NCBI RefSeq assembly: GCF_904061905.1
Contig: NZ_CAJFCI010000073.1
Location: 1 to 64,000, forward strand
Length of the DNA: 64,000 nt
Direction: 5' to 3'
DNA from: Zestomonas carbonaria
GTDB taxonomy: Bacteria > Pseudomonadota > Gammaproteobacteria > Pseudomonadales > Pseudomonadaceae
Made by a program: the position numbers and the translations under genes. The notes below the pieces were generated by a model. It ran no database searches, was not told the DNA's origin, and saw only the letters and a list, made by a program, of their open reading frames with translations. Positions 16,566 to 22,659 of this stretch are shown piece after piece. Each line of letters starts with the position of its first letter. Positions within the stretch are counted from its first letter, which is position 1.

Positions 16566-18308
16566 TCAGCCCACCCCCTGGCTCAACGGAAACAGCAGGT
16601 CGATGAACCGTTCGGCGGTCGGCTGCGGCTCGTGGTTGGCCAGGCCGGCGCGTTCGTTGGCCTCGATGAACACGTAGTCCGGCTGGTCGGGCGCCGGGAC
16701 CAGCAGGTCGACGCCGACCACCGGGATGTCCAGCGCCCGTGCGGCGGTGATCGCCGCCTCGGCCAGCGCCGGGTGGAGGATCGCGGTGACGTCCTCCAGG
16801 CTGCCGCCGGTGTGCAGGTTGGCGGTGCGCCGCACGGCCAGGCGTTCGCCGGCGGGCAGCACGCTGTCGTAGTCATGGCCGGCGACCCGCAGGGTGCGCT
16901 GGGTCTCGGCGTCCAGCGGGATGCGGCTTTCACCCCCGGTGGCGGCCTGCCGGCGGCGGCTCAGCGCCTCGATCAGCGCGCCGACGCTGTGGTGGCCGTC
17001 GCCGACGATCTCCGGCGGCCGACGCAGCGCCGCGGCGACCACTTCGAAGCCGATCACCACGATGCGCAGGTCAGCGCCGTCGTGGCAGCTTTCCAGCAGC
17101 ACCCGGCTGTCGAAGCGGCTGGCCCGCTCGATGGCGGCCTGCATTTCCTCCTCGGTGCGCAGGTCGACGGCCACTCCCTGGCCCTGTTCGCCATCCACCG
17201 GCTTGACCACCACGCGGCGGTGCTCGGCGAGGAACGCCGCGTTTTCCTCCGCCGTGCCGGCCAGCCGCTGGGCCGGCAGCTTGAGCCCGGCGCGCGCCAG
17301 GGTGCGGTGGGTGAGGCGCTTGTCCTGGCAGAGGGTCATGCTCACCGCGCTGGTCAGGTCCGACAGCGATTCCCGGCAACGCAGGCGGCGGCCGCCGTGG
17401 CTGAGGGTGAAGATGCCGCCCTCGGCGTCGTCGATCTGCACCTCGATGCCGCGCCGGCGCGCCTCGTCGATGATGATCCGCGCGTAGGGGTTGAGCTCGG
17501 CTTCCGGGCCGGGACCGAGGAACAGCACCTCGTTGATGACGTTCTTGCGCTTGACCGCGAAGGTCGGCAGTTCGCGGAAGCCGAGCTTGGCGTACAGCGC
17601 CTTGGCCTGGCGGTTGTCGTGCATCACCGAGAGGTCGAGGTAGGCGAGGCCGCGCCCCATGAAGTGCTCGACCAGATGGCGCACCAGCACCTCTCCGACG
17701 CCCGGCCGCGTGCATTGCGGATCGACCGCCAGGCACCACAGGCTGCTGCCGGCCTCGGGATCGTTGAACGCCTTGCGGTGGTCGAGGCCCATCACGCTGC
17801 CGATCACCGCGCCGCTGTCCTCGTCCTCGGCCAGCCAGTACACCGGCCCGCCTTCGGGGCGCGGGGTCAGCAGCTCCGGGTTGACCGGCAGCATGCCGCG
17901 GGCCTGGTACAGGCAGTTGATCGCCTGCCAGTCGCTGTCCTGGTGTGCGCGGCGGATGCGGAAGCCGCGGAAAGTGCGGGCCGCCGTGCGGTAGTCGCTG
18001 AACCACAGGCGCAGGGTGTCCGATGGGTCGAGGAACAGTTGTTGCGGCGCGTAGGACAGCACCTTCTGCGGCGAAGCGACGTACAGGGCGATATCACGCT
18101 CGCCGTGCTGCTCGTTGAGCAGTTCGGCGGCCAGGCTGCGCGAATCGGGGAAGGTGTGGCCGACCAGCAGGCGGCCCCAGCCGCAATGCAGGGCCACCGG
18201 TTCGTCGGGTTGCGCGGAGCCCCCTTCCGCGAAGCGGGCCTGCAGGCGGGCGTAGGAGGGCGTCTGGCCGCGCAGCAGGCGTTGGCTGATCTGATGATGG
18301 GCACGCAT
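16566..18308 (-). CDS. ngg: N-acetylglutaminylglutamine synthetase
   Basis: A 580-aa two-domain enzyme that builds N-acetylglutaminylglutamine, precursor of the osmoprotectant NAGGN. A GNAT acetyltransferase domain occupies about 90-260 (LAVDPQCTRPGVGEVLVRHL is the acetyl-CoA loop; DLSVMHDNRQAKALYAKLGF). An ATP-grasp ligase domain follows at about 290-575 (VVKPVDGEQGQGVAVDL; FIEANERAGLANHEP). The start at 18308 overlaps the asnO stop by one base (TGATG), with AGGAG upstream, showing tight coupling. Confidence 0.93.
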   Translation of the reverse strand: MRAHHQISQRLLRGQTPSYARLQARFAEGGSAQPDEPVALHCGWGRLLVGHTFPDSRSLAAELLNEQHGERDIALYVASPQKVLSYAPQQLFLDPSDTLRLWFSDYRTAARTFRGFRIRRAHQDSDWQAINCLYQARGMLPVNPELLTPRPEGGPVYWLAEDEDSGAVIGSVMGLDHRKAFNDPEAGSSLWCLAVDPQCTRPGVGEVLVRHLVEHFMGRGLAYLDLSVMHDNRQAKALYAKLGFRELPTFAVKRKNVINEVLFLGPGPEAELNPYARIIIDEARRRGIEVQIDDAEGGIFTLSHGGRRLRCRESLSDLTSAVSMTLCQDKRLTHRTLARAGLKLPAQRLAGTAEENAAFLAEHRRVVVKPVDGEQGQGVAVDLRTEEEMQAAIERASRFDSRVLLESCHDGADLRIVVIGFEVVAAALRRPPEIVGDGHHSVGALIEALSRRRQAATGGESRIPLDAETQRTLRVAGHDYDSVLPAGERLAVRRTANLHTGGSLEDVTAILHPALAEAAITAARALDIPVVGVDLLVPAPDQPDYVFIEANERAGLANHEPQPTAERFIDLLFPLSQGVG

Positions 18309-20080
18309 CAGTGGACTCCTTGTTCGCTGAGCCACAGGTTGAGGGCGGCGAGCTGCCACAGCTTGGAGCCGCGCAGCGGAGTGAGCTGGCCATGCGGGTC
18401 GCTGAGCAGGCGGTCGAGCATGGCCGGGTCGAACAACCCGCGATCCTGGCTGGGGTCGAGCAGCAGGTCGCGCACCCAGTCGAGGGTGGCGCCTTCCAGG
18501 TGCTTGAGGCCGGGCACCGGGAAGTAGCCTTTCGGACGGTCGATCACTTCGTGGGGAATGACCTGCCGGGCCGCTTCCTTGAGCACCTGCTTGCCGCCGT
18601 CAGGCAGCTTGAAGCGTGCCGGGATGCGCGCCGAAAGCTCCGCCAGGCGGTAGTCGAGGAACGGCGTGCGTGCTTCCAGGCCCCAGGCCATGGTCATGTT
18701 GTCGACCCGTTTTACCGGGTCGTCGACCAGCATCACCGTGCTGTCCAGGCGCAGCGCCTTGTCCACCGCCGCTGAGGCGCCGGGGCGGGCGAAGTGCTCG
18801 CGGACGAACTCGCCGGCGTGGTCGTCGGTGAGCCAGGCCGGCTGCACGCAGGCGGCGTAGTCGTCGTGGCCGCGGTCGAAGAAGGCCGCGCGATAGGCGG
18901 CGAAGGCATCCTCGGCGCCATCGACCTGCGGATACCAGTGATAGCCGGCGAACAGTTCGTCGGCGCCCTGGCCGCTCTGCACCACCTTGCAGTGCTTCGA
19001 GACTTCCCGCGACAGCAGGTAGAAGGCGATGCAGTCGTGGCTGACCATCGGCTCGCTCATGGCCCGGAAGGCCGCCGGCAACTGCTCGATGATCTCGCTC
19101 TCGGCGATGCGTAGCTGGTGGTGGCGGGTGGCGTAGTGGTTGGCGATCAGGTCCGAATAGCGGAACTCGTCGCCGCGCTCGCCGCCGGCATCCTGGAAGC
19201 CGATGGAGAAGGTCGACAGGTGCTCGACGCCGACCTCGCGCAGCAGGCCGACCAGCAGGCTGGAATCCACCCCGCCGGACAGCAGCACGCCGACCTCCAC
19301 CGCCGCGCGCTGGCGGATCGCCACGGCTTCGCGCAGGCTGTCGAGGGTCATGTCGCGCCAGTCTTCCAGGCCGAACTGGCGTTCGTTTTCGCGCGGGCCG
19401 TAGGTCAGTTCCCACCAGGTGTGCTGCTCGCGGCGGCCCTGGGCGTCGATGCGTATCCAGGTGGCCGGCGGCAGCTTCTCGACGCCGGCGAGAATGGTGC
19501 GCGGCGCCGGCACCACGGAGTGGAAGTTCAGGTAGAAGTTGAGCGCCACCGGGTCGAGCCGGGTGTCGATGCCGCCGCCGGCCAGCAGCGCCGGCAGGCT
19601 GGAGGCGAAGCGCAGGCGCTCGCCGGTCTGCGACAGGTACAGCGGCTTCACGCCGAGACGGTCGCGGGCGATGAACAGGGTCTGGGTGTCGCGCTCCCAG
19701 ATGGCGAAGGCGAACATGCCGTTGAGTTTCGGCAGCAGCTCGGCGCCCCAGGCGTGGTAGCCCTTGAGCAACACCTCGGTGTCGCCGTCGGAGTGGAAGC
19801 GGTAGCCGAGTTCCTGCAGTTCGGCGCGCAGCTCGGGGTAGTTGTAGATGGCGCCGTTGAAGGCCAGGGCGAGGCCGTGATCGCTGTCGATCATCGGCTG
19901 CGCCGAGGCATCGGACAACTCCATGATCTTCAGCCGGCGATGGCCCAGGGCAACCGGGCCCTGGCTGTGGAAGCCCCAGGCGTCGGGTCCGCGTGGGGCC
20001 ATGTGGTGGGTGATTTTTTCAAGAGTGGCCAGGTCGGCCGGTTGATGGTCGAAGCGTATTTCTCCAGCGATTCCGCACAT
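18308..20080 (-). CDS. asnO: N-acetylglutaminylglutamine amidotransferase (asparagine synthase-like)
   Basis: A 590-aa glutamine amidotransferase that amidates N-acetylglutaminylglutamine to NAGGN. Cys2 (MCGIAGEIRFDH) is the class II glutaminase nucleophile. The PP-loop LLSGGVDSSLLVGLL (about residue 270) marks the synthetase domain. First gene of a minus-strand operon asnO-ngg-peptidase. NAGGN accumulates under hyperosmotic stress in P. aeruginosa and relatives. The promoter should lie in 20081-20183, a short gap in which I see no clear binding site. Confidence 0.94.
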   Translation of the reverse strand: MCGIAGEIRFDHQPADLATLEKITHHMAPRGPDAWGFHSQGPVALGHRRLKIMELSDASAQPMIDSDHGLALAFNGAIYNYPELRAELQELGYRFHSDGDTEVLLKGYHAWGAELLPKLNGMFAFAIWERDTQTLFIARDRLGVKPLYLSQTGERLRFASSLPALLAGGGIDTRLDPVALNFYLNFHSVVPAPRTILAGVEKLPPATWIRIDAQGRREQHTWWELTYGPRENERQFGLEDWRDMTLDSLREAVAIRQRAAVEVGVLLSGGVDSSLLVGLLREVGVEHLSTFSIGFQDAGGERGDEFRYSDLIANHYATRHHQLRIAESEIIEQLPAAFRAMSEPMVSHDCIAFYLLSREVSKHCKVVQSGQGADELFAGYHWYPQVDGAEDAFAAYRAAFFDRGHDDYAACVQPAWLTDDHAGEFVREHFARPGASAAVDKALRLDSTVMLVDDPVKRVDNMTMAWGLEARTPFLDYRLAELSARIPARFKLPDGGKQVLKEAARQVIPHEVIDRPKGYFPVPGLKHLEGATLDWVRDLLLDPSQDRGLFDPAMLDRLLSDPHGQLTPLRGSKLWQLAALNLWLSEQGVH

Positions 20081-20183: not shown

Positions 20184-20876
20184 CTACGGATTGCCACAGG
20201 CCCGGTTGGCCGGCACGGCGATGTCCATCAGCCTGGGATTGGGCATCTTCAGATTGGCCATCAACTCGGCGTAGGCCTCGGCGCCCGGTACTTGCAGGCG
20301 TGGATTGTGCGTTGCCTCTTCGGCGATGCTGGAGCGGGTCCAGCCCTTGTAGTCGTGGCCGGGCCATACCTCCGTGTCGCCGGGCAGGGCCAGCAGGCGT
20401 TGCAGGCTGGCCCACTGGGCGTGGGCGTCGCCGTTCTGGAAGTCGGTGCGGCCGGTGCCGCGGATCAGCAGGGTGTCGCCGGAGAACAGCTTCGCCGGTT
20501 CCCGGTCGCTGCCTGGCAGCAGGAAGCAGTAGGAATCGTCGGTGTGCCCCGGCGTGTACCAGGCGACCAGTTCGCGTCCGCCGAAGGCCAGGCGCTGGTC
20601 TTCGGCGAAGGTGAAGCTGGCGCAGGCGCTGCCGCTCTGCGCGCCGATGCCGGCGCGGCAGCCGGTGGCATCGCGCAGGTCGCCAAGGGCGGTGATGTGG
20701 TCGGCGTGGGTGTGGGTGTCCAGCGCCAGCAGCAGGCTCAGGTCCAGTTCGCGGAGCAGCCGCAGGTAGTCGTCCAGCTTGTCCTTGACCGGATCGATCA
20801 ACAACGCCTCGCCCCGGTCGGCGAGCAGGTAGGTGTAGGTCGAACTGGTGCTGTCGAAGAGTTGGCGGAACAACAT
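20184..20876 (-). CDS. ETHE1-type persulfide dioxygenase (MBL fold)
   Basis: A 230-aa metallo-beta-lactamase-fold protein. The HTHADH motif at 55-60, His111 (PGHTDDS), Asp134 (FSGDTLL) and His174 (GHDY) form the mononuclear iron site of ETHE1/Blh persulfide dioxygenases, which oxidise glutathione persulfide to sulfite. GRTDFQ after the Asp is the usual ETHE1 signature. It is the last gene of an operon with a CsoR-family repressor, a rhodanese and a TauE-type exporter, which supports a role in sulfide/persulfide detoxification. Confidence 0.9.
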   Translation of the reverse strand: MLFRQLFDSTSSTYTYLLADRGEALLIDPVKDKLDDYLRLLRELDLSLLLALDTHTHADHITALGDLRDATGCRAGIGAQSGSACASFTFAEDQRLAFGGRELVAWYTPGHTDDSYCFLLPGSDREPAKLFSGDTLLIRGTGRTDFQNGDAHAQWASLQRLLALPGDTEVWPGHDYKGWTRSSIAEEATHNPRLQVPGAEAYAELMANLKMPNPRLMDIAVPANRACGNP

Positions 20877-20904: not shown

Positions 20905-21651
20905 CTAGAGTAGTTTCTGCCCGGCCAGCGTCAGGCTGGTGGCCGCCAGCAGCAGGGCGAAGATACGTTGCAGCAGCGGGCCGCCGAGGCGTAGCGCCAA
21001 CTGGTTGCCGAGCAGCACACCGAGCGCGCCACCGGCTGCCAGGCCGCCGAGCAGTGATGGCGAAGGGTGCGCATGGCTCAGGTAGAGCAGGAAGCCGCCG
21101 CCGGAAACCAGGGCGATCACCGCCATCGAGGTGGCCACCGCCGCGAGCATCGACAGCGGGGTGAACCACAGTAGCGCCGGTACGACCAGGAAACCGCCGC
21201 CGACACCCATCAGTCCCGACATTACGCCGACGCCCAGGCCGATGGCGAGCAGTGGCAGGCTGCGCAGCGGCCCGCCGCCTGCACGCGGCAGCTCGGCGCT
21301 GCGCCACAGGCGCCATGCCGACCACAGCACCAGGATGCAGAACGCCACCAGCAGCGCGGCCTCGGGGACGAAGCGTCCCAGCCACTGGCCGAAGGCGTTG
21401 CCGGGCAGGCCGGCGAGGCTGAGCAGCAGCACCGGTAGCCAGGCCACCTGGCCCTGGCGGGCGCGTGGAATGGCGCCGACCAGGGCGGTGAGGGCCACCG
21501 CGCCGAGACTGACGCCGATGGCATCGCGCAGCGGCAGGTGCAGGCTGAGCAGCAGCGGCAGGGCAACCAGCGAACCGCCGGCGCCGGTGAGGCCGAGCAG
21601 CAGGCCGAGCAGTGAACCAATGCCGAGGGCTTCGAGGAGCAGCAGCGACAT
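20905..21651 (-). CDS. TauE/SafE family sulfite exporter-like permease
   Basis: A 248-aa protein with about eight transmembrane helices. GLLLGLTGAGGSLVALPLL and, in the second half, GVGVMSGLMGVGGGFLVVPALL are the duplicated TauE/SafE (DUF81) motifs. The start codon overlaps the rhodanese stop (ATGA). Given its neighbours, it probably exports sulfite or thiosulfate produced from persulfide. The substrate is inferred. Confidence 0.9.
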   Translation of the reverse strand: MSLLLLEALGIGSLLGLLLGLTGAGGSLVALPLLLSLHLPLRDAIGVSLGAVALTALVGAIPRARQGQVAWLPVLLLSLAGLPGNAFGQWLGRFVPEAALLVAFCILVLWSAWRLWRSAELPRAGGGPLRSLPLLAIGLGVGVMSGLMGVGGGFLVVPALLWFTPLSMLAAVATSMAVIALVSGGGFLLYLSHAHPSPSLLGGLAAGGALGVLLGNQLALRLGGPLLQRIFALLLAATSLTLAGQKLL

Positions 21652-22193
21652 CAGCGGTTCCAGGGCATGCGCGCCAGCAGCAGGGCCAGGCCGCAGGTGC
21701 CGCTGAGGCCGGCGAAGGTCAAGCCGGCGCCGACGAAGGCGGCGAGGCCGTACCAGCCGGGGTGCAGCCAGGTGCCGAGGATCACGCCGAGCAACACCAG
21801 GCTGCCGGCGGCGATCTGTACCTGGCGCTGCAACTCGATCACGCCGCCACCGCTGCCTTCGCCCGGCAACCCGCAGGCCAGGCAAGCCTCGGTGCCACCC
21901 TCGATCACCTGTACGCCCGGTAACAGGCTGTGCAGGCGTTCGGCGGCCTGGCGGGCGCGCTGGCCCTTCTGGCAGACCAGGTACAGCTCGTCGCCGGCTT
22001 GCAGGCCCTCGGCGCGGAGCTGGGCGACCAGCCGCGCCGGATCGAGGCGATCCAGGGGTTCGTTGCGGGCGCCGGCAACGTGCCCGGCACGGAATTCCGC
22101 CGGGCTGCGCACGTCGATCAGGAAGCGCACGTGGCCCTCCTGGCGGGCGGTGGCGAAGCGCGGGGCGTCGATCAGGCGGATGTCGTCGTTCAT
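21651..22193 (-). CDS. Membrane-bound rhodanese with YgaP-like DUF2892 tail
   Basis: A 180-aa protein. Residues about 1-115 form a rhodanese domain with active Cys74 in VCQKGQRA. Residues about 120-180 form a two-helix membrane tail (IAAGSLVLLGVILGTWLHPGWYGLAAFVGAGLTFAGLSGTCG is the DUF2892 pattern). YgaP-type proteins transfer sulfane sulfur at the inner membrane. A perfect palindrome lies between the upstream repressor stop and this start, overlapping its ribosome-binding region. Confidence 0.9.
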   Translation of the reverse strand: MNDDIRLIDAPRFATARQEGHVRFLIDVRSPAEFRAGHVAGARNEPLDRLDPARLVAQLRAEGLQAGDELYLVCQKGQRARQAAERLHSLLPGVQVIEGGTEACLACGLPGEGSGGGVIELQRQVQIAAGSLVLLGVILGTWLHPGWYGLAAFVGAGLTFAGLSGTCGLALLLARMPWNR

Positions 22194-22200
22194 CTTCGGG

Positions 22201-22215
22201 TACTCCCTGGGAGTA
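22201..22215 (-). promoter_or_regulatory. Palindrome TACTCCC-T-GGGAGTA, candidate operator or RNA hairpin
   Basis: A perfect 15-bp odd palindrome fills the gap between the CsoR-family gene stop and the rhodanese start. Its GGGAG arm is also the only Shine-Dalgarno candidate for the rhodanese. It is the same sequence class as two copies upstream of the regulator. Confidence 0.6.
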
Positions 22216-22482
22216 TCAGGTGTATTTGGTGAAGATCGCCCGGACCCGGGCGAGGGTTTCGGCGTCGTCGCGCTCGGGGTCCATCACGGTCTCTTCCAGC
22301 AGGCATGCCAGCAGTTCCTGGTAGGCTCGGTCCAGCGCCTTGCGAGCGGCGGAGAACTGCTGGGCGATGGCTTCGCAGTCCTCGCCACGGCGGATCATCG
22401 ACTGGATGCCGCGAATCTGCCCCTCGACGCGGGCCAGGCGCTTGAGCATGGCGTCCTGGCGTTCGGGTGTGGGGCCGCTCAT
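22216..22482 (-). CDS. CsoR/RcnR/FrmR-family repressor, probable per/polysulfide sensor
   Basis: An 88-aa all-helical regulator. RLARVEGQIRGIQSMI is the family signature. Cys36 aligns with the universal first Cys. By hand alignment, the metal-ligand His of CsoR/FrmR (His60/61) is Leu61 and the third ligand is Thr65, so copper, nickel or formaldehyde sensing is unlikely. A second Cys at 60 could form a Cys36-Cys60' di- or trisulfide as in CstR, although CstR's second Cys is four residues further on. The start at 22482 follows AAGGCAG. It heads the rhodanese-TauE-dioxygenase operon and probably represses it. Confidence 0.85.
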   Translation of the reverse strand: MSGPTPERQDAMLKRLARVEGQIRGIQSMIRRGEDCEAIAQQFSAARKALDRAYQELLACLLEETVMDPERDDAETLARVRAIFTKYT

Positions 22483-22551
22483 CGCACTGCCTTCGCGGGA
22501 GTGGTGGGAGGTACCACGGTTTCTGTGGATAACGGGATGTGCATGGCTGGG

Positions 22552-22583
22552 TACTCCTTGGAGTATATACCCTGGGGAGTATA
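22552..22583 (-). promoter_or_regulatory. Two adjacent CsoR-type operator candidates upstream of the repressor gene
   Basis: TACTCC-TT-GGAGTA at 22552-22565 is followed immediately by TATACCC-TG-GGGAGTATA at 22566-22583. Both are near-perfect inverted repeats with C-tract/G-tract arms as in CsoR/CstR operators. They lie 70-100 bp upstream of the repressor start, in the promoter zone, consistent with autoregulation. Confidence 0.7.
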
Positions 22584-22659
22584 GTTTCGGGATCGAGCGC
22601 TTGTCACCCGCGACTGGTTGTCGCGGCATGGCTCGCGTATCGATGTGTCGGTCGCTCCG

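Follow-up and report, generated by a model that had tools for sequence, protein, structure and literature searches.

Organisation of the locus

The analysed window is a stretch of 64,000 nt from Zestomonas carbonaria (contig NZ_CAJFCI010000073.1, positions 1 to 64,000). The features of the locus are given below from the promoter downward.

22578..22607, minus strand: sigma-70-like promoter, GTGACA-18-TATACT, a consensus match only
22568..22581, minus strand: putative operator-like palindrome O1a, TACTCCCCAGGGTA, overlapping the -10 hexamer
22552..22565, minus strand: putative operator-like palindrome O1b, TACTCCAAGGAGTA, just after O1a
22479..22544, minus strand: 21-codon ORF overlapping the repressor start (ATGA)
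22216..22482, minus strand: repressor gene, CsoR family (PF02583), 88 aa, with Cys36, Cys60, Leu61 and Thr65
22375..22377, minus strand: codon of Cys36 (X position of the family fingerprint)
22303..22305, minus strand: codon of Cys60 (Y-1 position), present in 107/109 other, best-scoring loci
22201..22215, minus strand: putative operator-like palindrome O2, TACTCCCAGGGAGTA, between repressor stop and rhodanese start
21651..22193, minus strand: rhodanese domain with YgaP-like transmembrane domain, 180 aa
20905..21651, minus strand: TauE/SafE sulfite exporter family, 248 aa, its start overlapping the rhodanese stop
20184..20876, minus strand: ETHE1-like persulfide dioxygenase (MBL fold), 230 aa, named after solved-structure relatives

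Rhodanese, TauE and ETHE1-like dioxygenase genes lie downstream of the repressor gene on the same strand, in agreement with the persulfide-type operon proposed in the initial annotation. The best solved relatives of the dioxygenase include 4ysb, BpPRF and human ETHE1 (4chl). Such dioxygenases oxidise glutathione persulfide to sulfite. No metal transporter was found among the window genes scanned. Genes for N-acetylglutaminylglutamine synthetase and amidotransferase (16566-20080) follow directly 3’ of the dioxygenase gene on the same strand.

The promoter scan yielded a single promoter-like site (shuffle mean 0.0) and none at O2. As judged by eye O2 overlaps the ribosome-binding site. Moreover, it is included in terminator-like hairpins on the opposite strand.

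The repressor and its cysteines

The repressor scores 76.4 bits against the Pfam model PF02583 (Trns_repr_metal; gathering score 22.8), which places it in the CsoR family as had been annotated. It is the sole PF02583 match of the genome at E <= 0.001, while an NCBIfam scan of the protein returned only matches below the cut-offs. The predicted model (pLDDT 88.7) shows a three-helix fold with helices at residues 6-32, 36-66 and 73-87. Solved structures resembling it are InrS, S. pneumoniae CstR, FrmR and CsoR, with the nickel sensor InrS as the nearest fold match (TM 0.89).

The CsoR/RcnR family is characterised by a W-X-Y-Z ligand fingerprint, as laid out in PMC5146963. In the window repressor X is Cys36, Y is Leu61 and Z is Thr65. 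Three earlier statements on the protein are hereby borne out: Cys36 is the universal Cys of the family, the metal-binding His is replaced by Leu, and the second Cys sits at position 60. Cys60 therefore occupies Y-1, one residue before the family His position, five before Z and 24 residues after Cys36. The alignment is gapless through alpha2 against both S. pneumoniae CstR (PDB 7mq1; E60-N61-xxx-C65) and a Streptomyces homologue (T60-G61-xxx-C65). Cys60 aligns with the Glu of S. pneumoniae CstR and not with its second Cys, so the two-Cys arrangement is indeed atypical. The distance to the latter had been given as four residues and has to be corrected to five, the CstR Cys falling on residue 65 (Thr). 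An alignment gap that would shift Cys60 onto the CstR Cys is ruled out by the gapless CstR alignments and by the one model helix 36-66.

At 100 degrees per residue, residue 60 lies ~100 degrees from residue 61 and 140 degrees from residue 65, the angles being arithmetic on one continuous helix (H36-66) and not taken from a structure. By this helix phase Cys60 points off the His61/Cys65 face. A bridge formed by Cys60 may hence have another partner, as the residue is turned ~100 degrees away from the His position.

Fold and X-position Cys are shared with CsoR, RcnR, InrS and FrmR. These proteins keep the Y-position His, whereas the window repressor has Leu61 and Thr65 and lacks Pro2. The Cu(I) ligands of CsoR are X-Cys, Y-His and Z-Cys, of which only the first is found here (C36, but L61 and T65). 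FrmR needs Pro2, X-Cys for the formaldehyde bridge and Y-His, and RcnR uses His3, X-Cys, Y-His and Z-His, according to PMC5146963. In contrast, the window protein starts with MSGPTP and has L61 in place of the FrmR residues, and G3, L61 and T65 in place of those of RcnR.

Cys60 in relatives and in Pseudomonadota

With the window protein as query we compared 109 other loci, composed of 80 from named genomes (the best 80 of 384 confirmed) and 29 from relatives (the best 29 of 123 matching genomes among 298); the set is partly redundant, some strains being present in both sub-sets. Among these best-scoring loci Cys36 is present in 109/109 and Cys60 in 107/109. The two loci without Cys60 belong to Chloroflexi and show the classic HHxxxC. 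A one-off mutation is ruled out by this conservation. The two-Cys arrangement is common to many related repressors and not an oddity.

A census chosen independently of similarity to the window protein covered the 150 better-scoring PF02583 matches among those listed from 398 Pseudomonadota genomes. Cys60 occurs in 10 of these 150, the window’s own protein included. His61 is found in 0/10 Cys60 members vs 137/140 others, and Cys65 in 0/10 vs 74/140, again among the matches listed. The Cys60/His61 contrast gives a Fisher p of 2e-13, which is nominal because the census rows are related. Moreover, 42 of 49 representatives with His61/Cys65 have Asp at position 60. The three ligand-site residues 60, 61 and 65 hence differ together. 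The CstR pattern (Cys36, no His61, Cys65) was found in 0/150 Pseudomonadota members among the matches listed.

Both Cys60 and His61 are kept (ACHLQ) in the repressors of a Moraxellaceae bacterium and of Perlucidibaca (L066, L067), located near YeeE-type, ETHE1-like and TauE genes of opposite orientation. Possibly these two represent an evolutionary intermediate.

We also looked for a close plasmid-borne relative, which is ruled out as all 81 matched plasmid records show less than 60% identity. Cys60 is absent from the three aligned plasmid homologues (H5, H8 and H37) of these 81. An Acidithiobacillus plasmid homologue carries D60-H61-C65 with no sulfur genes annotated, and a plasmid homologue from Streptomyces, which adjoins rhodanese, TauE and MBL genes, carries T60, G61 and C65, unlike the window repressor.

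Ancestry of the Cys60 repressors

A tree was built with columns 60, 61 and 65 masked (58 columns used, bootstrap unsettled). In this tree 18 Cys60 representatives group with two rows lacking Cys60 (L211 and L254, support 89/49), both of which are likewise without His61. The strict Cys60 set requires three changes vs a shuffled mean of 16.6, and none of 200 bootstrap trees (0%) sets it apart by a single branch. One origin of the Cys60 set is not rejected by an AU test (p 0.386). A single origin of these repressors is possible judging from the tree.

The repressor itself is closest to that of L003 (93% aa identity, among the matches listed), while that of L007 (P. thermotolerans) reaches 85%. 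For rhodanese, TauE and ETHE1 the values are 95, 92 and 91% against L007, and 83, 76 and 80% against L003. The sequences suggest a mosaic ancestry in which the repressor segment would have been replaced at the window locus.

Genes adjoining Cys60 repressors

Counted by distinct repressor DNA there are 96 distinct Cys60 loci. One or more sulfur genes are found in the examined flank of 59 of these and none in that of the remaining 37, where 18 loci carry just a Tll0287-like gene and 19 carry neither. The gene sets vary: Rhod-TauE-PDO, PDO-SulP-Rhod, YeeE/DUF6691-PDO and SQR-like. In the Pseudomonas mendocina group the Cys60 repressor occurs with a Blh-like sulfur dioxygenase, SulP and rhodanese, in Rhodoferax-like bacteria with an SQR-like flavoprotein, and at other loci with YeeE-type sulfur transport/DUF6691 and dioxygenase genes. 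The Blh and SQR assignments come from NCBIfam matches that score under the curated cut-offs, and the Blh match spans the dioxygenase part of a two-part model.

In the census, sulfur genes appear in the examined flank of 5/10 Cys60 members vs 3/140 other members among the matches listed, whereby most flanks comprise 1.5 to 2.5 kb and the neighbour gene models were seeded from Cys60 loci.

Three classic C36/H61/C65 members (L142, L150 and L152) also adjoin PDO and/or rhodanese genes. From their neighbours, some members with the copper-type pattern may serve sulfur too. Because of these three members, neighbours alone do not fix the signal.

A Tll0287-like gene upstream of the repressor

Many relatives carry a gene for a Tll0287-like c-type heme protein (PF11845) between promoter and repressor. 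It is present in 33/96 distinct Cys60 loci; relatives with the gene upstream of the repressor include L003, L005, L007, L009, L012 and L038. The protein (DUF3365, CxxCH heme) looks periplasmic, and an operator-like site precedes its gene. In the window’s genome no match to the Tll0287-like gene was obtained, while the same query was positive in 3/3 control relatives.

The promoter side of the 21-codon ORF matches that of L003 at 73% over 97 positions. A weak likeness between the end of the ORF and the end of the L003 Tll0287-like gene is seen by eye. The ORF is possibly a deletion remnant of such a gene. In the open-licence literature no paper with both DUF3365 and CsoR was found.

Operator-like palindromes at the locus and elsewhere

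The palindromes follow the pattern ATACYCC-GGRGTA. Beside the repressor gene, i.e. 130 bases before and 170 after it, the 32,230 bases examined from 108 Cys60 loci contain 49 copies of the pattern where shuffles expect 0.25; it was drawn from the same, partly redundant loci that were counted. A single copy lies in the ~247,000 bases of farther flank, and none in 28,829 bases of repressor-coding sequence. The region 130-900 bases upstream, including the sites before the Tll0287-like gene, lies outside both counts. Among loci bearing TauE an operator-like site is located 3’ of the repressor gene in 21/29 and absent in 8/29. Both comparisons favour the sulfur reading, since Cys60 loci served as seeds for the neighbour models and the counted loci themselves supplied the pattern.

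We then searched 25 chosen whole genomes with Cys60 repressors. Operator-like sites are present in 21 and absent from four, with 48 strand matches in total (palindromes counted twice) vs 7 for the reversed control pattern. Sites away from the repressor locus are found at nine places in eight genomes. Three of the nine precede sulfur genes. In G025 one site is placed 26 bases upstream of a Blh-like dioxygenase gene, and a second ~175 bases upstream of where a rhodanese gene likely starts; in G086 the site lies 20 bases upstream of a Blh-like dioxygenase gene, behind which SulP is located. The other six are not placed before sulfur genes: three fall within coding sequence (G000, G127 and G141), two are upstream of an FMO-like gene (G009 and G077, the G009 neighbours being judged by eye), and one has no evident sulfur gene beside it (G246, also by eye). 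The off-locus match in the window’s own genome (contig C32) falls within the gene of an acyl-CoA dehydrogenase and was regarded as a chance match. In the two related genomes with the FMO-like gene (their loci being L276 and L301), the site upstream of this gene is of the type ATACTCC-N4-GGGGTA or GGGGGTA.

Comparison with known sulfane-sulfur sensors

The closest proven case is the circuit of ScCsoR (SCO0620) from Streptomyces coelicolor (PMC7533328), which comprises the same four gene types: a CsoR-like repressor together with PDO, rhodanese and TauE genes. There, ScCsoR was shown by experiment to be a sulfane-sulfur sensor with the operator ATACCn6GGTAT. Palindromic ATACC-GGTAT operators are found at several promoters, resembling the palindromes in the window. 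The pairing of PDO with TauE in Streptomyces is proposed to serve sulfite export (PMC7533328). Polysulfide persulfidates Cys37, the sole Cys seen modified, and both Cys are needed for release. The cysteines of ScCsoR (Cys37 and Cys66) are 29 residues apart, whereas Cys36 and Cys60 of the window repressor are separated by 24.

CstR from Gram-positive bacteria and B. licheniformis YrkD are CsoR-family repressors which sense persulfide or sulfane sulfur and control rhodanese, sulfite exporter, SQR or PDO genes. The gene order in the window and its operator-like sites appear to agree with such targets. In CstR the cysteines occupy X and Z, 29 apart (in S. pneumoniae CstR by alignment), in contrast to C36/C60 with Thr65 at Z. 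A further hallmark of CstR is a di-, tri- or tetrasulfide bridge that forms in response to per/polysulfide and goes along with a loss of affinity for DNA. The Y position is Asn in S. pneumoniae CstR (Ala in the N55A mutant 7mq3) and Leu61 in the window repressor and is thus free of His in both. YrkD binds DNA on either side of its own gene, with one region upstream and one downstream (PMC9918477). Both YrkD and TTHA1953 have two Cys. The latter is a CsoR-family regulator of sulfur oxidation in Thermus thermophilus, for which disulfide formation in the dimer is reported to lower DNA binding (PMC10318464). Its Cys39 and Cys68 are again 29 apart and its targets are Sox genes far from its own locus, both differing from the window repressor.

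A putative sulfane-sulfur sensor with a displaced dithiol

Taken together, our data point to an autoregulated CsoR-family sensor of sulfane sulfur (per- or polysulfide), whichever way Cys60 takes part, with a probability of roughly 0.78. Of the initial interpretation, family, two-Cys arrangement, persulfide operon and per/polysulfide as the most likely signal stand, while the spacing does not. The reduced repressor would occupy the ATACYCC-GGRGTA operators, both at the promoter and 5’ of the rhodanese gene, and would in this way keep the operon off. Rising sulfane sulfur would persulfidate Cys36, by analogy to ScCsoR and CstR. Cys60 might then resolve or stabilise the Cys36 persulfide as a di- or polysulfide link or otherwise, whereupon the modified repressor would leave the DNA and the operon would be switched on. 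Finally, the sulfane sulfur would be moved, oxidised to sulfite and exported in that form by rhodanese, ETHE1-like dioxygenase and TauE.

Judged from sequence comparison, the Cys60 repressors are best read as a conserved variant of the sulfane-sulfur-sensing CsoR-family repressors, and the window repressor as CstR-like in role with a differently placed dithiol. The 24-residue spacing and the helix phase leave one of three options: the bridge geometry really differs, Cys60 pairs elsewhere, or Cys60 only tunes Cys36. It falls somewhat short of even odds that Cys36 and Cys60 together form the switch. They would then define a persulfide-sensor class of the Proteobacteria’s own, arisen once and using an inter-subunit sulfur bridge unlike that of CstR for the same DNA release. 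The classic D60-H61-xxx-C65 would have become C60-L61-xxx-T/A65 in that class, the dithiol being rebuilt at X and Y-1.

A variant inside the sulfane-sulfur reading holds that only Cys36 is modified and that Cys60 tunes or stabilises Cys36, or packs the core, with no bridge between the two. It is a realistic option of less than even probability. It fits the phase of residue 60 on the continuous helix, ~100 degrees from 61 and 140 from 65, and it fits the ScCsoR case (PMC7533328), in which release requires both Cys but persulfidation was observed at Cys37 only. On the other hand, Cys60 is kept across close relatives in place of the Asp of the classic CsoR type (42/49), which argues for a chemical role.

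Rather improbable is a general sensor of thiol redox state or electrophiles (e.g. disulfide stress, NO or aldehyde), for which persulfide would be one inducer and the Tll0287-like heme protein the older target. The Tll0287-like gene accompanies 33/96 distinct Cys60 loci, 18 of them without sulfur genes in the examined flank, and stand-alone members of the Tll0287 family look redox-related (PMC12889525). TTHA1953 loses DNA affinity with Cu(II) or H2O2 and not with NaHS in vitro, as reported in PMC10318464. However, several different sulfur gene sets adjoin 59/96 distinct Cys60 loci, and in two genomes trans sites precede dioxygenase genes.

Very improbable is a metal sensor whose ligands would be a new set including Cys36 and Cys60, beside incidental sulfur genes. 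The scaffold is shared with Cu, Ni and Co sensors, the Ni sensor InrS being the nearest fold match, and the sequence as such would be compatible with metal binding. However, His61 and the Z ligand are gone, no metal transporter is found among the window genes scanned, and the linkage to sulfane-sulfur genes recurs with trans sites before such genes in two genomes.

If the class with a Cys36-Cys60 switch is real, persulfide sensing would have been solved a second time, independently, on the same scaffold. CsoR-family proteins clearly exemplify how a single fold is adapted to different inducers. Here, a natural set with an erased metal site and a second Cys five residues off its CstR place allows the geometry question to be asked directly, namely what persulfide selectivity and its coupling to DNA release require. 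Moreover, repressors which the PF02583 model calls only metal-sensitive would be given a likely function, operator and targets. A description of the Cys36/Cys60 arrangement was not found in the open-licence literature (titles and abstract openings); the principal publication on the family (Nucleic Acids Res 2021, 49:12556) is outside that scope and could mention it.

In addition to the sulfur gene sets, a gene for an MMPL-type exporter is located 3’ of the Cys60 repressor in two loci (L062 and L063), where a TACCCTACGGGGTA palindrome lies 5’ of the repressor. Possibly such exporters constitute another target class of Cys60 repressors.
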